The translations under genes were made by a program, and so were the position numbers. Under the pieces are notes generated by a model. That model saw only the letters and a program-made list of their open reading frames with translations. It was not told where the DNA came from and searched no databases. From positions 1 to 34,803 of IMG/VR virus record IMGVR_UViG_3300030328_003953: DNA of 34,803 nt. The stretch is one strand, 5' to 3'. The stretch is from a virus. Below are positions 62 to 31,051 of the stretch, in pieces (positions within the stretch are counted from its first letter, which is position 1; each line of letters opens with the position of its first letter).

Positions 62-193
62 AGTCTAGTTTCGTCCGTTGGGTAGTACGATATACGCGTC
101 CCTCAAAACCCTATATTGTCCCCACATTGTCCTCGGAGAATAATGGTTTGAATTGTATAGTTTTGGTGGAGGACAATATGACAATGGTTTCAA

Positions 194-230
194 GTTACAC
201 ACATACCCACGCACACACACACGCCCACAC
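194..230. repeat. CA-rich alternating purine-pyrimidine tract
   Basis: The stretch is dominated by CA dinucleotides, with an uninterrupted run ACACACACAC around 213-222 and flanking variants. Such tracts can adopt Z-DNA or unwind easily. It lies in the middle of the iteron cluster. Confidence 0.6.
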
Positions 231-275
231 GTATGAGAGCGTATACACCCCATGTACGCTATAGGCCACTCATAC
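231..275. repeat. Nested inverted repeat within the iteron region
   Basis: Outer arms GTATGAG (231-237) and CTCATAC (269-275) are exact complements. Directly inside, AGCGTA (238-243) pairs with TACGCT (255-260), leaving an 11-nt loop and an 8-nt bulge on the 3' side. A 45-nt structure with 13 pairs could form as a hairpin or cruciform. It sits between the iteron copies at 169 and 288. Confidence 0.5.
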
Positions 276-461
276 TTTTTTGTGTCAATATCGTCCTCGT
301 TTTGATTAACCTGGTTTTGTCGGTCAGAATCAGAGGACAATATCGAAAAAAGATCGTCCTCCTGGGACACAGAGTTTGTCCTCCCCTTGAAATCCATTGT
401 AAATGTGTGTGAAGGGGTTGCATTCTGTAAGTCGTCATGGTAGTGTTCTTGGACCTTACCC

Positions 462-471: not shown

Positions 472-696
472 ATGTCTGAGAGCAGAGAAGCATTCAAGTA
501 TGGTGCGCAGCCTACCGAATCGTGCTTATCGGTAAAAGAAACAGCAAGGCGTTTGGGCGTATGTGCTCACACGGTATACACGATGGTGCGCGAGGGTGAA
601 CTGCCCGCTTTTCGTGTACGCAACCAATGGCGAATTAACGAATCTACTCTAAGCGAGTACATGCAGGCCCAAAATATTCCCTCTTCTGCCCCGTAG
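472..696 (+). CDS. Excisionase/MerR-like helix-turn-helix DNA-binding protein
   Basis: A 74-aa protein of the HTH_17/excisionase-domain type. Residues 19-55 hold the signature: L-S-V-K-E-T-A-x-x-L-G (first helix and turn), a recognition helix with H-T-V-Y-T-M, then E-G-E-L-P-A-F-R-V and Q-W-R-I, the usual wing and end of the family fold. These proteins bind short DNA sites as recombination directionality factors or small regulators. No integrase is seen in the window, so a regulatory or origin-binding role is as likely as excision. The start at 472 is chosen for its AGGAGG; an ATG at 403 would add 23 residues that look non-coding. The stop lies 6 nt before the primase-helicase start, so the two are probably co-transcribed. 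The upstream repeats and palindrome are candidate targets. Confidence 0.8.
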   Translation: MSESREAFKYGAQPTESCLSVKETARRLGVCAHTVYTMVREGELPAFRVRNQWRINESTLSEYMQAQNIPSSAP

Positions 697-702
697 GATC
701 TC

Positions 703-3195
703 ATGCACAATTCCCAACAGTCTATTCTCCAGGCTTCCCAACAGGAGATTCGGGCCGCTCTTGGTGCCCTCTTCGCAGCAGGCGATATAGTCGAGCTACG
801 TGCGTTTATACCTTCGAACTATTCTAGTAAGCCCAACATTCTTGCGGGATATTTTGATGACTTCGACGTTCTTTCCAAAACAGCAGCCAACCTATCCAAT
901 AATGGCGCGTATGGATTGTACATTACACCTCAAGAAATCAATTCCGACCTACTCGCCCGCGCACTGAACAAGACGAAGAAAGGAATTAAGACTACATCGG
1001 ATAAAGATGTTACGCGGTATAGATATTTACTAATAGATCTAGACGCTAACCGCGTATCTGGCGTTTCATCTACATTAGAAGAGAAGAAAGCTGCGTTCGA
1101 TAAGCTACGTGAAGTCTATAGCTACCTCAAAAGCCAGGGCTGGCCAGAGCCCATCTTTGGGGATAGCGGAAATGGGGCACATCTTCTCTATCGTGTAGAC
1201 TTAGCTCCCGATTCGGACCTAATCGAGCGATGCTTGCGGGCTCTTTCCTTTATGTTCGACACAGACAAAGTAATCGTCGACCAAACCGTCTTCAATCCGT
1301 CCCGTATCTGGAAGCTCTACGGAACAGCTACCCGAAAGGGGGACTCGACCCCCGAACGTCCCCATCGGAAAGCTCGATTACTAAAGGCCCCCGAAAAAGC
1401 GGAGAAAGTTTCCCAGCGTCTACTCCATAAGTTGGCAAAACGTGTACCGGCAGAGCCTCAGCGCGCGAAATTGGGGTCAGCAGGAACAGAACGAGCTAAG
1501 CTAACTACCTGGGTTCATCAGCATTTATCTGACACCGTAGTTGGGCCTATATCATGGCCTGGTAAAGGTGTTCGTTGGTTATTCGACGAGTGTCCCTGGG
1601 ATCCAACCCATACAGATCGAAGTGCTTTTATCGTTCATTTTGATCGCGGAGGTATCGCAGCAGGATGCCACCATGAGGATTGTCCAGGTAATAAGAGCAA
1701 TACCAAGAAGAATGATACAGGATGGGACCGCTTACAGGCCAAATATACCAAGTTAAAGCCCCCGAAGCCCCCAAGCCCACCCGATTCCATGGGACCTATT
1801 GTCCCTCCGAGCCCTAATAGCCCCGGATATACCGATACAGGTAACGCTTTGCGCCTAGTTCGTGCCCATCAAGCTAACATTCGCTACGTTCCTAAGTGGC
1901 AACGGTGGCTAGTCTACAGTGGAAGACGCTGGGCCGTGGACGATTCGCAGCAAATCATGCAATATGCGAAGAATTCTATCGATGCAATGTACGTTGAGGC
2001 TGCAGGTCTCGCTCAAACCGACCCGGCTACGGCGAACAAGCTGTTTAAGTGGGCGGTTAAGTCGGGTTCAGCCTCTTCTCGGCGTAACATGATCAGCCTA
2101 GCGGAGTCAGAACCGGGTATCCCTATCCAGACAGCGGAGTTAGACCGAGATCCTTGGAAGCTTAACGTCTTAAACGGTACTCTAAACCTAAAAACTGGCG
2201 AACTAGCCCCACATTCTCGCACAGACCTCATCACTAAAGTGGCAAAAGTAGAATACGACCCAGCGGCTAAATGCCCCACATGGGATGCGTTCATGTTGAC
2301 TGTCATGGGGGACAAACAACACCTAGTAGACTACTTGCATGCCTATATTGGCTATTCACTAACCGGAGTTATTACAGAGCAAACGCTAGCTTTCCTCCAC
2401 GGGACTGGTAGCAATGGTAAATCTACTTTTCTATCCACCATACAAAAGCTCATGGGGGACTATGCACGGCAGGCTGCCCCCGAACTATTATTATCGAAGA
2501 CTACTAGTGACCATCCAACATCCATTGCAGATCTTCAAGGTGCTCGTTTTGTAGCTACTTCAGAGATTGACCGAGGGAGGCATTTTGCGGAAGCCCTTAT
2601 CAAACAACTCACAGGCGGGGAAACAATCAAAGCGCGATTCATGCGGCAAGACTTCTTCGAGTTCGACCCCACGCATAAGCTCTGGATTGCAGCTAACCAT
2701 AAACCGATCATCAAAGGAAACGACTGGGCTATCTGGCGAAGAATTCGACTTATCCCCTTTGAAGTCACAATTCCCGACGACAAACAAGACAAGAACCTGC
2801 CCCATAAACTCACAGCCGAACTGCCCGGAATCCTAAATCGTTTTGTAGAAGGCTGTCTGCTTTGGCAGTCAGGAGGACTCAAGCCTCCCCCCGAAGTTAT
2901 GGTTGCAACTGAAGAATACAAAGATGAGATGGACCTACTGAAGGACTTCTTGGATGAGTGGTGTGTTCAGCGCGAAGGAGTACGCGTTGAGGTATCTGTT
3001 CTTTATGAGCGTTACCTTGACTGGTGTGAAATTACGGGTGACCGCAAGCCTATCAACAAGAAGTACCTAGGAAGGTTACTAAAAGAGCGTGGATTTAAGC
3101 AGTGCAAGAAAGGCGGTCATAGAGCTTGGGAAGGTATTGCATTAAAACCTCATAACCCCGTGAGCGCAAAGTCTTCACAGGCACGGTGGAACTAA
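703..3195 (+). CDS. P4-type phage/plasmid primase-helicase
   Basis: An 830-aa replication initiator with an N-terminal archaeo-eukaryotic-type primase domain and a C-terminal superfamily 3 helicase. Primase signs: metal-binding D112-x-D114 in L-L-I-D-L-D, the S155-G-N-G-x-H160 motif, and N198-P-S-R-I-W-K-L-Y-G. Around residues 290-330 a segment with several Cys and His could hold a metal. Helicase signs: Walker A G567-T-G-S-N-G-K-S-T575, Walker B ending E621-I-D623, and motif C K659-L-W-I-A-A-N665. The C-terminal 100 residues resemble the winged-helix tail of D5/P4 primases. Proteins of this family prime DNA and unwind the origin; phage P4 alpha also recognises origin repeats. The iteron cluster upstream fits that role. 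The start has AGGA 4 nt upstream. No DNA polymerase gene is present in the window. Confidence 0.9.
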   Translation: MHNSQQSILQASQQEIRAALGALFAAGDIVELRAFIPSNYSSKPNILAGYFDDFDVLSKTAANLSNNGAYGLYITPQEINSDLLARALNKTKKGIKTTSDKDVTRYRYLLIDLDANRVSGVSSTLEEKKAAFDKLREVYSYLKSQGWPEPIFGDSGNGAHLLYRVDLAPDSDLIERCLRALSFMFDTDKVIVDQTVFNPSRIWKLYGTATRKGDSTPERPHRKARLLKAPEKAEKVSQRLLHKLAKRVPAEPQRAKLGSAGTERAKLTTWVHQHLSDTVVGPISWPGKGVRWLFDECPWDPTHTDRSAFIVHFDRGGIAAGCHHEDCPGNKSNTKKNDTGWDRLQAKYTKLKPPKPPSPPDSMGPIVPPSPNSPGYTDTGNALRLVRAHQANIRYVPKWQRWLVYSGRRWAVDDSQQIMQYAKNSIDAMYVEAAGLAQTDPATANKLFKWAVKSGSASSRRNMISLAESEPGIPIQTAELDRDPWKLNVLNGTLNLKTGELAPHSRTDLITKVAKVEYDPAAKCPTWDAFMLTVMGDKQHLVDYLHAYIGYSLTGVITEQTLAFLHGTGSNGKSTFLSTIQKLMGDYARQAAPELLLSKTTSDHPTSIADLQGARFVATSEIDRGRHFAEALIKQLTGGETIKARFMRQDFFEFDPTHKLWIAANHKPIIKGNDWAIWRRIRLIPFEVTIPDDKQDKNLPHKLTAELPGILNRFVEGCLLWQSGGLKPPPEVMVATEEYKDEMDLLKDFLDEWCVQREGVRVEVSVLYERYLDWCEITGDRKPINKKYLGRLLKERGFKQCKKGGHRAWEGIALKPHNPVSAKSSQARWN

Positions 3196-3330
3196 ATGCC
3201 TAAAAATGCCAGTAATCGTGGCGTTGTTTCACGCTCTCCCCGTCATGGTGAATCGATACGTAAGTTTGCAACGGGCTGCTGCAACTATCCGTCGACAGCA
3301 TGCATCCACCATGTTTTGCATATTGCACTT

Positions 3331-3441: not shown

Positions 3442-4077
3442 ATGGAAGGTAGCGATAACCTTGAGCTTACTAATTGGATAGAATCTACGCCTGTTTTTAA
3501 AAAATGGCTCATGTCTTCTCAAGCGTTTGTGGCTCCAGCAGCATGGCCAGGGGACGTTGAAAAGATGTTTCGGTTACGAGGGGAGGTACCTACTCCCTAT
3601 GAGGTAGCAGGATTACGCAGTAGCAGCCATGTTAAACGAGGCCTATGGCACTGTCATGAAGTATCTGTTTTGATTGCCTACAGTTTTGGTATGTCTGTCC
3701 AACTTATGGCAGAAGGTATGGAGACGGATCCTACCTATATTCTCGCTGATATGATTCAGGGCGTAGAGAAACTATGTTCTATACCTCAGTTTCGCCTTTG
3801 GTGTTGGAATTTAGATCTGAACTTAATTCCTCTTCCACCTCTAGAAGGCTACTCTCTAAATGATCGCCTCGAGATTTTTGAGGCATTGCGGGATCATCCT
3901 TTTAATGTCAAAACAGCAGCCTGCAAAGCGTTGCTGGATGCACCGTTTTTTAAGTCGTATGCTAAACTTAAATTGCTTCCACCTAAATTGAAACACCGAC
4001 CCCGAATGGGCACCCCTCTGGTAGGCCCACCTAAATTAAGGAAAACAAATGGCAAGAAAAAAGACTCCAGTTCGTAG
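3442..4077 (+). CDS. HTH-like protein upstream of the terminase genes, function unassigned
   Basis: A 211-aa protein from the start at 3442 (293 aa if translated from 3196). I do not recognise a named family. The middle (W-H-C-H-E-V-S, then L-I-A-Y-S-F-G-M-S-V-Q-L-M-A-E-G-M) has the spacing of a helix-turn-helix: a helix, G-M-S turn, and a recognition helix. The C-terminus is Pro/Lys-rich and ends in a basic tail (K-K-K-D-S-S-S). It overlaps the next gene by 29 nt, so the two are translated together. Its place as first gene before the terminase pair makes a DNA-recognition role in packaging, or control of late genes, the best guess. It could be the true small terminase instead of the next gene. 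Confidence 0.55.
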   Translation: MEGSDNLELTNWIESTPVFKKWLMSSQAFVAPAAWPGDVEKMFRLRGEVPTPYEVAGLRSSSHVKRGLWHCHEVSVLIAYSFGMSVQLMAEGMETDPTYILADMIQGVEKLCSIPQFRLWCWNLDLNLIPLPPLEGYSLNDRLEIFEALRDHPFNVKTAACKALLDAPFFKSYAKLKLLPPKLKHRPRMGTPLVGPPKLRKTNGKKKDSSS

Positions 4078-23575: not shown

Positions 23576-26500
23576 ATGGCGGAACCAACTAATCCTAAGC
23601 CTACTTCTCCGTTCCTAACTGATCAGATGGCGCTTGAACGCTCAGAAATTGATGAGTATAGTGCAGGTTTAAATAGGTGGGCTGCAAGTCGAGCCCAACA
23701 ACTTGAGCCTGCGGAGCCTGCGGAGCCTGTAGATCTGCCCGAGTCAATAGGGGCTAAAGTTAGTCCTTCGGTCGATACGCCAGAGCCCATGCCTGCAGAC
23801 GACTCTGTGTTTGTCTCACAAAAAGATTCGGATGAGCTAGAAGCGAAGCAAAGACACCTCATCGAGGGCCTTACGAAGGCGGGTTGGAAAGACTTAAGCC
23901 TAGATACTTTGCGCTCTCGTATCTCAGCAGGAATTGCCGAACAGTATCCTAAAACAGCTTCTGCTCCCAAAAGGAAAGGCTTTAGTACAACAAGCTTAGA
24001 ACAGTCCTCTTACGGTCCAAAAGCTTGGGTTCGAGATGCGCAGAACTATATCGATCCTGAAAATAACTATCCTGCAACAGAGTTGCCCTACTATGGTCAG
24101 AGCAGAGGGTTTAACCGCCCCATTGGCTGGTTATTTGGCAGAGAGGGGTTTACCGGCGTACAAGAAGGGGAAGAGCCCGCACCTAAACTTGAAAATTTAC
24201 AAGCTCCCACGGCCCGTGAATTAATCGGACAGGCACAAGCAAGTATCCGAGAAGAAGAAGACGGCCTTAGCTTTGAGAACTTTGAGCCTTTAATGATCAC
24301 TCCAGGAGCCTTGAAAGTTCTACGCTTAGACTTAAGGCGGATGGGAATTCCAGAGCAGCAGGCTGAAGCCATTCCTTTAGAGTATGTAGCTCCTTTATGG
24401 GACCGTGTTCGAAAGCAGAACAGGCAAATCTCTAAACAACTTAAAGAAGCCGACAAGATTTCCGACATAAACCTAGTTGGTTCGGCGCGTGTCTTAGGTC
24501 AAAAAGAAACAAAAGAAGTTCAAGCCAAGCTGTCTTCTGATCCCGATGTACAAGCCTTTCAAAAGGCCGTACTAGCATCGAAGCCAACCAAAGGAGCAAA
24601 AGATGCGCTATTAAACGCAGGCTTTACAGATCGAGACCAAGACTTGCTAGATGCGTATGAAGCTTTTGAGATTCAAAATATTGATTCCTACCAGGACTAT
24701 GCACGAAAAGTTGAGTCCAAGCCGAAAGTTGTAGGGGAGAATAGAGTTAAGTACGGTTCCGTTAGTCCAATCGAAGGTAAAGTGCCTCTCGTCTATATTA
24801 AAGACAAAGGTTGGAATATCGATGCAAACAAGATTCATCAAGCCTTAAGCTTTCGTCGGCATCAAGAACTGTGGGCCGATGAGTTAGAACGTCTTGAAGG
24901 AGAGGGCCTTACTACAGAAACAGCTATGCAGCAGATCCGTAAGGACGAACCCTTCTTACTTGATATTAAGAAGAAAGCGGAAGATTATGCATATAAAAGA
25001 ATTCTGACTTTTCTAGGACAAAGGTCTGGTTCGGTTACACCCGTATTTTACCAACAGGAGGGAGGCTCTAACTACACCTCAGAATATTACGACCCGTATG
25101 ATGTGCCCTCACCACCGCCTGGCGCGCCAATGACCCCGGCTCAAGCACTCAAGTTTGTAGGCCCTTTTGTTGTTGGTTACAAAGCGCCTTGGGTTAGTAC
25201 GTCGTCTACCCCCATCTCTCCGGGCAACATCTACGAAGGGAGAAATATTCAAAATATTTCGAAGGGCCAACTCTCTGAGTTTTTACGTTCGGCTTCTTCC
25301 ACAATAATTGGTAGTCACCTTTTAAGTTGGAGCCCCCCAGATTCGTCCGATCCACAGGTTGTATGGGAGTCCCTATGGGAACACTGGGGTTCGCCAGAGC
25401 ACTATGAGGAACTAACTACTGGGCAGTTTGATCTGACAGAACGATTTTATGACGTAGGGGACAGAACAACACAACTATTGCAAGCAACTCCGGGCGTAGG
25501 CAACTACGTTCCAGACTTTGAGTACTTAGGGAAGAAACGACTTGGCTTAGCTTTGGGATTACCTATCCTTTTGACTGACTTCGATTACCTAGCTTTAACA
25601 AGCTTTGGTCTAGGTAGAGTCCTTAAACCGGTTGCTCGTGGTATTCGCATGGTTCAGAATAGCAATACGATTGAGGCACTAGAATCAATAGCGAAAACAA
25701 TGGCGGATACGCCTGTACTAGCGAGAAAAGAGTTACAAACAAAGGTAGCAAAGTCAAAAAAGGGTACAGTTAGTCCTCTCCTTAAACTTATTGATGCTAG
25801 TGTCGGTTCTAAGCTTCAACGAAATGACGTGAATAGTGTCTTTGCTCTTAGCGATGAGATCAAGAGGACACAAGATGCGGTAGTCTCTGCGGAGAAAAAA
25901 TTAGATGAGGCTAAAGCTGAACTTAATCAGGCGAATATTGCAGCCGCCCAGCGAGAAGTGAACTTAGCTAAAAAGGAAGCATTTGATGCTCAAGTTGATG
26001 CCTCTGCAAACATCCAAGCATTGGCCGAGCAAGAGTTAAAGGTAGCTCAACGGGTCGAAAAAGACGCGTTCGTAGGTCTACCTAAAGTCAAGCTTACAGA
26101 CGCCGCCGATATAGACAAAGTACATGAGGCCGCAAAGTTAAATTTTTCCTCTCTGCTTGAGGAGCCCTTACCTGGTGGCTCGCTTAAGTCTGAGGTATGG
26201 AAGGTTGAGTCGGAATACCAAGTAAAACGGCGTCAGTTGATTTCCGACATTGCAGATACTTTATCCGCTCAGGAGAAAAAAGCGGGCAGAGTTCTGCGCC
26301 GTACTGCGGCAGAAGTAAGAGCCGAAGCCAACCTTACAGATCTTAGTCGAAAGATCGCACAAACTGAAAAGTTGATTGAAAGCTTATCTGCGGCAGCTAA
26401 GCCATCTGAAGCTATGGTAGAAACGCGAAAACTACTAGAGCAAAAGGAGAAGGACCTTGCTAAGGCATTAGAGCCTGATCTTAAGATCATAAACAAGCTA

Positions 26501-29500
26501 GGCTACAGTAAGCGTCTACCGGTGCAAGAACGATGGGAGCGTTATCTCGCCGACTATCCCAAGAATACCCGGCCTAAAAGGATTGCCGCACTAAGATCCG
26601 AGATTCAATCTCTCAATGATGTTCTCTCTACTGAGGCACAGCGACTAGCAAAGGCAGACAACAAAGCCGATCTAGGCATAGCGCAAAATACGTTAGAACG
26701 CCTTAGATTAGAACAGAGAAAAGCTCTGTACACATTAAGAGATCGACAGCAAACTCGCTTTAAACGTCAGCCTGTCTTCGGGGAAGAGCTTTTAGAGCCT
26801 GAACAGGTACCCTTCAAAGAGACTTTGGAGAACCTGAACAAGGACGAGAAGTCCGCATTTATTAAGAAAATTCAGCGAGCATACGCGGACGAGAGCGGCA
26901 TTTGGCGTGGTCAGATCACACGACGCACGCAAGGTAAAACGTACTACTCAAAGCCTGTTCAGGTTCAAATTGAGGGTGGTCAAATTCTAATCGGCAGAGG
27001 CTCTGCCATGGATGCTGCGCCTGAGTTTAGACCTGTAAGTCGTGCGGAGTTGCAACAGAAAGGGATCGAAGTTCCTACGATTGACCCTAAGCGCTTCGAG
27101 GGAAAAGCCGCTGAAATTCCTGAAATGGTTACGGCACGAGCCGAGTTCAGGGAAGCCCTGGCAGAGGTCGAGGCTACTCGTTTAAAGGAGTTAAAAGCCT
27201 TGGGGCTGACGCCAGAAGATCCTGTTTTGCGTGAGTTGACTAATGCCGCAAAAGCCCTCGATAGGGCTACCGCACAGCGTTATGCGCTTCAGCGCTCTGT
27301 TGCCAGATTGATTGCAGAGGAGAAACTAAAAGAAGCTAAGGCTGCTTTTAAGGCGTTAGTTAATAAAAAAGTTTCCCCTATCGACGGACAACTCTTACGA
27401 GCTAACGCTCAAGAGTCCCTGATAAATGCGCAGAAACTACTACAGGCCAAAAAATTAGCGGCTGAACGTACACAGAATATTCTTCGTGAGACTCTTACTG
27501 AAATTGCGGACTCGTTACGTGCGGAGAATCGACTTCTAAGAACGGGCGGTAAACGCTACTCTAATTTCTTTGAAGATATGGTTCAGCGCCTTCCGGTTGG
27601 AAGTGTAGCATTTGCTCAGGCCGCGTTAGGTAAACAGGCCAATCGGTCTTTGCTGGATGTTTATTCCGATGCAGCCCTCTCTATTCCCGACTATGTGAAA
27701 TACCGTATTAATGGGCTAGGAGGTATCAACATTGAGCGTGTGACGCCTGATCCTATAATCACTTCTCTTTTAAAAACGGATGAAGGCGTAGGCCTTGTTG
27801 ACGAAGGGGCAGAGGCAGTCATCTCCGCAAAAGAGTTGCGTAGTGGATTAGAAGATCGATATGGAAAACGTGTCGTTAAGGATTTTATTGCCGCGTCAGA
27901 AAAGGGCGAGCAGCGGGTACCTGACTGGTACACAGGAAGATCATATAAGGAATTGTTGGATTCAACTGAGACCAAATTTAAGATTGAACCACAGGAAATT
28001 GCCTTACTGCAATTGGTAGAAGACAAGCTAGCCGTCAACGCCAACGCCTTCTGGAGACAAAGTCAAAACTTAGATCTAGCTTACCAGCTTAAGATAATGG
28101 AATCCTCTTTTGCTCGAAGCGGCGTCTTCGGATTTATAAGAAACGTGTTTAGATCAGGCGCTCTAGCTGAAAGAGACATGAGTGACGAACTTAGACTGGT
28201 CATGCAGGAAGTGGAGAACCTGTCTAGTCGAGGACGAGAAGAACTAGAGTCTCTGATTCGATCTTCGATTGATGAGGGCCTTGATACTTCCGAAACTGTA
28301 CGCGTTCTTAAGAATTACATGGACGGTACGGCCATCAGAATAGGCTCAGAGCGCAATAAGATGGGAGAGACCTACATAAATCAGGGCGTGAACTTATGGC
28401 AATCAGTACGCACCAACTTACTTAACGACGCTGTATGGACAGGCGAAAAAGCAGGTAAAAAATTCCTTGTTGGCCGTCGAGGTGCAGAGGCAAAGGCCGA
28501 AGCTCTTGCTCGTCTGGAGAAGAGAGGAATTACTGAGGAAGATGTTATTGCTAAATACATCGAAGGTAAAGAAGTTGATGGCGTTCTACCTGACTCGGTA
28601 CAGGCAGAGGCTCAAGCTGAATGGACAAAGACACTGGCAAAAGAATTTGAAAAAGTTCTAGGTATAGACTCAATCCCTTGGGCAAAAGGAGCGACAGATG
28701 CACCTAAAAGTTTGTTAGCACTCTCAAAAGTATGGTATCCGCGAGGGGTAACTGCTCCGATACCCGCCGATAAAATGCTTCGGCATGCATATACGGCTCT
28801 CCACGCAGCACCTGATTTTCCATCTTTTATGACTTATATGAAGAAGAAGATGTATGCGCCTACAACTAGTGGCGGGATAGGCGCTGGCGACCAAGAAGAC
28901 TTGCTAAGGGCATACCATGGCGCGGTATTAGCCTCTATACACGCTAAGGTTTACACGGAAGGTATCTTGCGAGTAGCTGAAATAGCGGGACCTCGGTTGA
29001 ATGAGCAGCAAGGAGAGGCAGTTAAAGCATTAATATCAGGCAACTGGTCTAAAGCTACAGGTGGTAAAGAGGCTTTTGTATCCGCTTTAACTCAACTAAA
29101 CCAATTAGGTATCCCCATCAATACACAAATGGTAGGTGAACAAGTAGACAAGGCTACACGCCTATCACGTCAACTAACAAAAGTTAGCAATAACCCTAAT
29201 GGTATGGATGCGTATGCGCCTACAGATATTATCTCGAGCTTGAATGAGGCACTAGGGGCTATTGAAAAAGAGATTGAATTAAATATTAGTTATACGAAGA
29301 CCGAGAAGTTTATTAATGCAGTGGGAGAAGTCAATGTCATAGGTCCGGTCGCCGCCTGGGCACTCACGCGTCTCCATAACATTTTTGGGACATGGCGAAG
29401 GGGTCTTGTCACAGGGCTACTCTTACCTAATCCTCGACATTGGACAAATACCTCTACAGGTAACTTTTTCCAAGATTGGCAAGAGCAGGGCCTTGCAGCC

Positions 29501-31051
29501 GCAATGCGTTATGGGTTTCAGTCATTACCTACAAACGTCCCCTTTATAGGGCGGGCGATGCAGGATGCAACCTCTCGAGCCTTTGCAGAAGGTAGATTAG
29601 GTACACGCATCGGATCTTTGTACAATACGCGACTCCACGACTTTTGGTCGATGCCTACAAGTGAAGCTAGAAAAACCTTTATCCGTGATAGGAAGGGAAG
29701 ACTCCATAATATTTTAGACCTTCGTATACGTGCTGCACGAGATGGGATCCTAAGTACATTTGAGGCCGAACGGGGCCTTCTTAGTACAGCAACTTTGAGG
29801 GCGGTTAGGGGAGAAGAGTCCTTCGCAGGCAAGCTGACGCGTCGAACGGATGACTGGAATAATTCAATTGCTCAGATGATGGTATATGCAGAACAGCGTA
29901 ACCGAACAGCCTTCTGGTTAGATCGTATTATTAGAGAGGGTGACTCTTACGCAGATGCGAGAATTGCAACCTTGAACGCACGTTATGACTGGAAGCATGG
30001 TATATCTAGATTTGAAAGAGCCAAGCTAGTACACTTGGCCGCGTTTTGGCGCTGGTTCAGTTTAGCTGTACGTAGACACCTAAGTGCTATATCGGATAGT
30101 TTTACGGGCAAGCCTGGTCTTCTCCGAACACTTACGGGGACAGATAAACTAGGTCGAATACGTCGTCAGCTTAACGTAGCAAAAGCGATAAAAAACTATT
30201 CGCGAGAGGACTCCCCCGAACAGTACGATTCTCCAGAGGCGCAGTGGGATGATTTGATGTTGCACATCGATCAGTGGTGGGCAGATTCACATGTTACCGG
30301 GGGGCAAACAACAGCCCCGCTGGATTCTACAGTTTACTGGAAAGATCTTACAGGTAAAACTTATACCCACACTGTCATTGCGGGTCCGGCTATCCCTGCA
30401 GCGGAAATGACAAACTATTTTTTAAGTACCGCTAGTGGACTATCCGGTCTAGGTGCATTGCTTACTAATAGTACGGCTTCGGCTCTTGGGCAGGAGCCAC
30501 CTTTCCTCCTTACAGGTGGGGATAGTAAATACGGAAAACCTGGTTTTGTTGCTAGTGCCGCTAGTGTACTTGATCCAGTTATCGATCAGTTTCTTCCGCC
30601 ATTACAGACTATTTTCCAACAGGAGTTGGGAGGCTATCGTACAAGTTACAGGTCTCGGCCTATAAATATAGGAGAGGCGGCTGCACTCGAGACCTTTGGC
30701 GGGAAGGATCTTTTTAACTTATTCGGTATGGATGTTCATATTGGTGATGACAACCGGTGGCGTGCAAATGCTCAGGCGCTTGCTCTCGCTCGTCAACTTC
30801 CTTACTGGACTCAGTACACCGCGTACTTGAGTAACTACTATACTGCTAAGCAAGATCTTCAACGCAACTATTATCTCGGTGCTGCTACTGTATTAGGTAA
30901 CTTTTTAGGTATTAGGAAAGTACCGTTTAGTCCTGAAGAACAGCTTAAGTGGGATATGCGTAAGATTCAAAATGAATTGAAGGAAGAAGTCGAAGCTGCT
31001 AGACTGCCTATGGAACGAATTAAAGTTAGTTCTGATTTAGGATTTGATTAA
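23576..31051 (+). CDS. Giant internal virion / ejection protein, 2491 aa
   Basis: A 2491-aa protein taking up a fifth of the window. The N-terminal 600 residues are mixed, with Pro/Glu-rich stretches. A hydrophobic segment lies near 655-690 (L-G-L-A-L-G-L-P-I-L-L). Residues about 760-1450 are mostly charged coiled coil. The last 900 residues are a large helical region, with aromatic-rich parts near 1940-1970 (T-G-L-L-L-P-N-P-R-H-W-T-N-T) that recall large polyvalent virion proteins. I found no lytic transglycosylase motif and no single-subunit RNA polymerase motifs (N4 vRNAP type). The likely role is that of T7 gp16: packed inside the head and ejected with DNA. A tape-measure role is less likely in a short-tailed phage. 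Confidence 0.6.
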   Translation: MAEPTNPKPTSPFLTDQMALERSEIDEYSAGLNRWAASRAQQLEPAEPAEPVDLPESIGAKVSPSVDTPEPMPADDSVFVSQKDSDELEAKQRHLIEGLTKAGWKDLSLDTLRSRISAGIAEQYPKTASAPKRKGFSTTSLEQSSYGPKAWVRDAQNYIDPENNYPATELPYYGQSRGFNRPIGWLFGREGFTGVQEGEEPAPKLENLQAPTARELIGQAQASIREEEDGLSFENFEPLMITPGALKVLRLDLRRMGIPEQQAEAIPLEYVAPLWDRVRKQNRQISKQLKEADKISDINLVGSARVLGQKETKEVQAKLSSDPDVQAFQKAVLASKPTKGAKDALLNAGFTDRDQDLLDAYEAFEIQNIDSYQDYARKVESKPKVVGENRVKYGSVSPIEGKVPLVYIKDKGWNIDANKIHQALSFRRHQELWADELERLEGEGLTTETAMQQIRKDEPFLLDIKKKAEDYAYKRILTFLGQRSGSVTPVFYQQEGGSNYTSEYYDPYDVPSPPPGAPMTPAQALKFVGPFVVGYKAPWVSTSSTPISPGNIYEGRNIQNISKGQLSEFLRSASSTIIGSHLLSWSPPDSSDPQVVWESLWEHWGSPEHYEELTTGQFDLTERFYDVGDRTTQLLQATPGVGNYVPDFEYLGKKRLGLALGLPILLTDFDYLALTSFGLGRVLKPVARGIRMVQNSNTIEALESIAKTMADTPVLARKELQTKVAKSKKGTVSPLLKLIDASVGSKLQRNDVNSVFALSDEIKRTQDAVVSAEKKLDEAKAELNQANIAAAQREVNLAKKEAFDAQVDASANIQALAEQELKVAQRVEKDAFVGLPKVKLTDAADIDKVHEAAKLNFSSLLEEPLPGGSLKSEVWKVESEYQVKRRQLISDIADTLSAQEKKAGRVLRRTAAEVRAEANLTDLSRKIAQTEKLIESLSAAAKPSEAMVETRKLLEQKEKDLAKALEPDLKIINKLGYSKRLPVQERWERYLADYPKNTRPKRIAALRSEIQSLNDVLSTEAQRLAKADNKADLGIAQNTLERLRLEQRKALYTLRDRQQTRFKRQPVFGEELLEPEQVPFKETLENLNKDEKSAFIKKIQRAYADESGIWRGQITRRTQGKTYYSKPVQVQIEGGQILIGRGSAMDAAPEFRPVSRAELQQKGIEVPTIDPKRFEGKAAEIPEMVTARAEFREALAEVEATRLKELKALGLTPEDPVLRELTNAAKALDRATAQRYALQRSVARLIAEEKLKEAKAAFKALVNKKVSPIDGQLLRANAQESLINAQKLLQAKKLAAERTQNILRETLTEIADSLRAENRLLRTGGKRYSNFFEDMVQRLPVGSVAFAQAALGKQANRSLLDVYSDAALSIPDYVKYRINGLGGINIERVTPDPIITSLLKTDEGVGLVDEGAEAVISAKELRSGLEDRYGKRVVKDFIAASEKGEQRVPDWYTGRSYKELLDSTETKFKIEPQEIALLQLVEDKLAVNANAFWRQSQNLDLAYQLKIMESSFARSGVFGFIRNVFRSGALAERDMSDELRLVMQEVENLSSRGREELESLIRSSIDEGLDTSETVRVLKNYMDGTAIRIGSERNKMGETYINQGVNLWQSVRTNLLNDAVWTGEKAGKKFLVGRRGAEAKAEALARLEKRGITEEDVIAKYIEGKEVDGVLPDSVQAEAQAEWTKTLAKEFEKVLGIDSIPWAKGATDAPKSLLALSKVWYPRGVTAPIPADKMLRHAYTALHAAPDFPSFMTYMKKKMYAPTTSGGIGAGDQEDLLRAYHGAVLASIHAKVYTEGILRVAEIAGPRLNEQQGEAVKALISGNWSKATGGKEAFVSALTQLNQLGIPINTQMVGEQVDKATRLSRQLTKVSNNPNGMDAYAPTDIISSLNEALGAIEKEIELNISYTKTEKFINAVGEVNVIGPVAAWALTRLHNIFGTWRRGLVTGLLLPNPRHWTNTSTGNFFQDWQEQGLAAAMRYGFQSLPTNVPFIGRAMQDATSRAFAEGRLGTRIGSLYNTRLHDFWSMPTSEARKTFIRDRKGRLHNILDLRIRAARDGILSTFEAERGLLSTATLRAVRGEESFAGKLTRRTDDWNNSIAQMMVYAEQRNRTAFWLDRIIREGDSYADARIATLNARYDWKHGISRFERAKLVHLAAFWRWFSLAVRRHLSAISDSFTGKPGLLRTLTGTDKLGRIRRQLNVAKAIKNYSREDSPEQYDSPEAQWDDLMLHIDQWWADSHVTGGQTTAPLDSTVYWKDLTGKTYTHTVIAGPAIPAAEMTNYFLSTASGLSGLGALLTNSTASALGQEPPFLLTGGDSKYGKPGFVASAASVLDPVIDQFLPPLQTIFQQELGGYRTSYRSRPINIGEAAALETFGGKDLFNLFGMDVHIGDDNRWRANAQALALARQLPYWTQYTAYLSNYYTAKQDLQRNYYLGAATVLGNFLGIRKVPFSPEEQLKWDMRKIQNELKEEVEAARLPMERIKVSSDLGFD
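23705..23729 (+). repeat. 9-bp tandem repeat coding Glu-Pro-Ala units
   Basis: Unit GAGCCTGCG occurs 2.8 times in a row, in frame, giving E-P-A-E-P-A-E-P in the N-terminal linker of the giant protein. Confidence 0.75.

Follow-up and report, generated by a model that had tools for sequence, protein, structure and literature searches.

The window analysed here, a stretch of DNA of 34,803 bp, covers part of the genome of an uncultured phage (IMG/VR record IMGVR_UViG_3300030328_003953); the left end of this fragment falls just before an array of short repeats, or iterons, and its right end within a structural-type gene region. The array is followed, on the + strand throughout, by a candidate promoter, a gene for a small HTH_17 protein, a primase-helicase gene and then genes for terminase, portal and head proteins (Table 1). 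The two ORFs of 74 and 830 amino acids were found as the sequence-only reading had described them. Further downstream, positions 23576–31051 encode a protein of 2491 aa that matches nothing in PHROGs and is probably a very large structural or tail component. Rfam and tRNA searches returned no matches, and among cultured phages neither a close terminase nor a full-length match to the primase was found. A close relative of the record is ~54 kb long (G002, ~54.5 kb), and the G002/L006 primase is 81% identical to that of the window. The G002 array lies at ~31.9–32.2 kb within a run of + strand genes, ~2 kb after a strand switch, and the opposite-strand block encodes a UDG/family-A polymerase protein and an SNF2-type helicase. 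The former (L164:15576-18026) is an 816-aa protein that combines a uracil-DNA-glycosylase-like domain, a 3'-5' exonuclease and a family-A DNA polymerase.

Table 1. Features of the candidate origin locus (positions in the window).
Feature	Position	Strand	Basis
Weak candidate outer iteron ATATCGTACTA	83–93	-	Motif search; aligns with a better site, GGGACAATAT, in L006
Iteron, left half-array, outer	113–123	+	Motif copy search
Iteron, left half-array, outer, 11-bp period	124–134	+	Motif copy search
Iteron, left half-array, inner, exact copy	169–179	-	Motif copy search; kept in L006
Site-free core, candidate melting region	180–287	.	Relatives' cores similar in length
Iteron, right half-array, inner	288–298	+	Copy search and L006 alignment
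Iteron, right half-array, exact copy inside GAGGACAATATCGAAAAAA	333–343	-	GAGGACAATATCGAAAAAA identical in L006/G002
Iteron, right half-array	351–361	+	Copy search and L006 alignment
Iteron, right half-array, outer	373–383	+	Copy search and L006 alignment
Candidate sigma70-type promoter TTGCAT-N17-TAGTGT, HTH-primase operon	419–447	+	Outside the array
74-aa HTH_17 protein	472–696	+	Pfam HTH_17, E 1.8e-16
830-aa AEP primase + D5/SF3 helicase + C-terminal winged helix, proposed initiator	703–3195	+	Pfam D5_N, DUF5906, Pox_D5
D5/RFX-like winged helix, residues 739–815, proposed iteron reader	2917–3147	+	Model, fold match and Pfam
Wing, residues 796–812, stretch tracking the repeat word	3088–3138	+	Identity scans and structure model

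The motif ATATTGTCCTC occurs seven times at ≤2 mismatches between 113 and 383, each copy having zero, one or two mismatches; all seven, in both orientations and with two at an 11-bp period, lie where they had been claimed to lie. Counted across the full 34.8-kb record, copies with ≤1 mismatch (5/7) are confined to this region, and the reversed pattern used as a control gives 0 copies in the whole record. In a chance test unbiased over all 11-mers (≤2 mismatches, 271-bp windows), the best 11-mer reached seven copies in the region against at most four in 251 other windows of the record and at most five in 1000 Markov shuffles. Three copies (113, 124 and 169) form a left half-array and four (288, 333, 351 and 373) a right one, with a core of ~108 bp between them. 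The spacing is 11 bp for 113/124 and 22 bp for 351/373, while the inverted pairs 124+/169- and 288+/333- are each 45 bp apart, the pair recurring at an offset of 164 bp.

The arrays of related phages keep this layout and change its words. L006/G002 align with the window through the whole array and retain the sites one by one; substitutions within them fall mostly on the T/C position and the final two bases, while the spacers have diverged. About 30 further relatives, with primases 42–50% identical to that of the window, carry an array at the same place and with the same layout built from other words: TGTAACC, TGTCTAC, CGTCTAC, TTTGTGGTT, TTTGTAGTT, TGTTACA, TGTCAAG, TGACTAC, TTCTACG and TGCTACC, the word groups having been assigned by us from motif searches. 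TGTAACC is the word of one clade and recurs in L196 and L200. When read in a single direction, most words consist of a variable stretch followed by a rather constant ACA (or ACG). In the common layout one helical turn separates the outer sites, the inner sites or doublets point towards each other in inverted orientation, and the two half-arrays face each other across a site-free, usually AT-rich core of mostly 83–118 bp, whose boundaries vary with the mismatch threshold; the whole array spans ~240–400 bp. The window, the TGTAACC group, L252 and L118 all have a step of ~44–46 bp between outer and inner sites, and the array of the window is a sparse version of this family layout. A window-wise repeat search in four long genomes ranked the array as the top repeat region, or near the top in G002, where the exact-7-mer measure does not discriminate.

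L314, a Gammaproteobacteria MAG with six copies of CGTCCTC, was excluded despite its window-like word, its copies being one-stranded, its primase having a different C-terminus and an HTH gene being absent. Upstream of the L008/L192 primase (46% identical), at which no HTH gene was detected, lies a possible further word, AGTGAAC/GTTCACT. L255 has six copies of CGTCAAC exactly 12 bp apart upstream of its primase (-368 to -308), a strictly tandem and different arrangement.

The core has an AT content of 0.53 in the window and 0.56 in L090; in most relatives it is about 0.58–0.81, against locus means of 0.39–0.54. Purine/pyrimidine alternation in the window core is 0.69 versus a background of 0.47, above all 2000 random samples. 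The CA-rich tract pointed out in the sequence-only reading is real (about 194–230), but as a conserved element it was rejected, since it has diverged in L006/G002 and is absent in L006. Cumulative GC skew, suggested as an additional indicator, tracks gene strand and gives no consistent mark at the array in the window and four long relatives.

The 830-aa protein unites primase, SF3 helicase and C-terminal winged helix. Walker A and the primase motifs D112/D114 and DSGNGxH160, which we take to be those of an AEP, are invariant in the alignment. The primase had been called P4-type; P4 alpha has a Toprim-type primase, however, whereas the invariant AEP-like motifs place the primase half of the present protein in the AEP type. 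The C-terminal 141 residues gave a predicted structure with a pLDDT of 85.6, in which two helices (model positions 75–89 and 97–106) are followed by two strands (110–114 and 117–121) that form the wing, residues 799–810. Across 20 family members, Pfam detected Pox_D5 in all 20 and RFX_DNA_binding in 12. The top PDB fold match of the model was the RFX1 DNA-binding domain on its X-box (E 7e-4), followed by full-length PrimPols. In RFX1 it is wing W1 that contacts the major groove, with helix 3 touching the minor one (PMC8998557, PMC2533330), a mode of contact which fits a conserved helix combined with a word-dependent wing.

Among pairs of phages whose primases are 60–90% identical overall, wing identity is 0.76 when the word is the same versus 0.45 when it differs. 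The corresponding values are 0.76 and 0.71 for the body of the winged helix, and 0.56 and 0.57 for the HTH protein. In scans along the primase a segment within residues 796–808 ranks first both family-wide and within clade B, some AEP segments scoring nearly as high as the wing. L198 and L118 illustrate the pattern: the winged-helix body and the HTH protein are each 88% identical between these two phages, which share 82% overall, whereas the wing reaches only 38% and the words are different (TTTGTGGTT and TTTGTAGTT). L131 shares its word with the TGTCTAC phages at ~40% overall identity and has a wing identity of 0.50–0.54 to them. L196 and L200, on the other hand, have the word GGTTACA in common, yet their wings are just 38% identical. 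With overall and body identity controlled, 19 representatives gave a partial r of 0.41 (p 0.0002) for the wing and 0.08 (p 0.22) for the HTH protein, the p values coming from label shuffling, by which the effect of relatedness is only partly removed. In a stricter test with 14 clade-B representatives the wing–word association was not significant (p 0.16–0.25). With whole-word similarity in the collapsed clade B, p was 0.25 for the wing, and the AEP domain scored higher, probably through relatedness. The association is thus suggestive to strong in the sequence comparisons; it is confounded by relatedness and falls short of proof.

We consider it probable that the array, at ~83–383, is the replication origin of the phage and that its iterons are bound via the C-terminal winged helix of the primase-helicase. 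An origin with initiator-bound iterons, as first proposed from the sequence, is the best-supported reading: position and dyad layout are kept in about 30 phages as the word changes, and the wing follows the word. From these comparisons we infer iteron binding, core melting, priming and origin function as follows. Through its D5/RFX-like winged helix the primase-helicase would bind the iterons, with an oligomer probably forming on each of the two half-arrays. The SF3 helicase would then open the ~108-bp core and the AEP primase would make the first primers, to be extended by a DNA polymerase (the relative G002 encodes one of family A). As the wing would set the word, wing and all iterons would change together between related phages.

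For the small HTH_17 protein a role as regulator or accessory factor is probable; a PDB sequence search with it found no match. Its gene lies between array and primase in 34/37 loci, and this position would suit a scheme in which both proteins bind, the HTH protein as co-initiator or origin remodeller while the primase reads the words. The C-termini QLDLF, QLDLFN, QLNLF, PLDLF and QFDLF of the HTH proteins of L196, L202, L252, L203 and L118, which presumably resemble the bacterial sliding-clamp-binding motif, would also suit it. However, the HTH proteins of the window and L090 end in SAP and lack such a tail, and no separate conserved motif was identified for the HTH protein, so that we regard joint binding as possible but rather unlikely.

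Less likely still is an operator array of BldC type, on which the HTH_17 protein oligomerises to control the HTH-primase operon or a neighbouring unit. Such an array would explain why the HTH gene adjoins the repeats and why several iterons are about one helical turn apart. Against it, the identity of the HTH protein does not follow the word, being 88% between L198 and L118 with their different words and only 34–64% among the phages with the common word TGTAACC. The idea is further weakened by the conserved promoter downstream of the array, which lies 36 bp past the last site in the window and ~110 bp past it in L096. L090 has a promoter-like element of equal spacing (TTGCAT-N17-TAGGCT), and comparable elements occur in many relatives; a stricter generic consensus promoter scan did not list 419–447. 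Further, a dyad around a core with outward orientations is untypical of an operator. A packaging (pac/cos) or partition site, which could likewise appear as repeated sites in a non-coding phage region, is highly improbable given that the large terminase gene lies ~4 kb from the array, that the array follows the primase C-terminal type and not the terminase, that terminase relatives without this primase have no array or unrelated repeats (tandem-like and near no primase in L136 and L153), and that no par genes were found.

The link between arrays and the C-terminal domain is also seen outside the family. In a set of 122 full-length AEP-D5 primases, adjacent arrays (within 1 kb of the primase gene) accompany 31/41 with the domain versus 6/81 without it (Fisher p 1.5e-14); outside the family the counts are 3/8 and 5/79 (p 0.023). 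There the arrays lie mostly downstream of the gene, several, those of L204, L270 and L243 among them, having the same mirrored layout, and we liken these downstream arrays to the origins of PICIs (PMC6092414). The words ATGGATA, AACGTCA, AGCCGGG, CGTACCA and GAGACCA make up mirrored arrays downstream of the primase in L204, L270, L243, L266 and L256, loci on other viral contigs and on elements carried by MAGs (Poribacteria, Chloroflexi, Thermaerobacter).

Read as an initiator-bound origin, the array can be compared with several known systems. The proposed initiator is, like P4 alpha, a single protein with primase, SF3 helicase and C-terminal winged helix; it differs in its AEP-type primase, and the fragment contains no second repeat cluster. 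In iteron plasmids and lambdoid phages, the iterons diverge in step with their initiator, so that origins are specific to the replicon, and the iterons of lambda lie inside gene O. The initiators of these systems belong to different families from the AEP-D5 protein of the window, and iteron plasmid origins have DnaA boxes beside the iterons, whereas the record contains 0 matches to TTWTNCACA. pRN1 ORF904 and the replication protein of Bordetella phage BIP-1 likewise combine an AEP primase with an SF3 helicase and a C-terminal winged helix, and in pRN1 too a small regulator gene (orf56) precedes orf904. For both, a large stem-loop downstream of the gene was proposed as the origin, and the authors found no iteron origin (PMC4234260). 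In the window, by contrast, the iteron array lies before the gene and no long stem-loop was found 3' of it, where the next ORF starts at 3196 and only a 14-nt overlapping palindrome occurs at 3489–3508. The pri-rep-ori modules of PICIs/SaPIs have two iteron sets flanking an AT-rich region proposed to melt; the rep-ori is functional in plasmid tests, such as those done with EcCICFT073, and the origin lies 3' of rep in these integrated satellites (PMC6092414). Two element-specific iteron sets around a central region, beside a primase/initiator gene, are common to both. However, the array of the window is 5' of the HTH and primase operon instead of immediately 3' of rep, its core is not AT-rich (the cores of most relatives are, as given above), and the phage has its own terminase, portal and head genes. 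The locus would work like PICI and P4 origins yet belongs to neither, being set apart from P4 alpha by its primase domain and from PICIs by position and lifestyle.

The differing words may allow a phage to initiate its own replication and no other. Tentatively, and with slightly less than even confidence, the family could be seen as a fast-diversifying, wing-coded replicator: on a fixed dyad layout, the RFX-like wing and all ~7–13 iterons would switch together, yielding many mutually exclusive origin specificities. The word would then be roughly a variable tetramer beside a more constant ACA/TGT, and the driver would perhaps be competition among co-infecting relatives or origin-hijacking satellites. 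The family offers a natural set of pairs, each an initiator wing with its iteron word, on a constant layout of the proposed origin, and wing swaps could thereby test directly how AEP-SF3-winged-helix proteins recognise an origin. Repeated concerted word switching would be a clean case of a change in replicon identity, relevant to phage co-infection and satellites.
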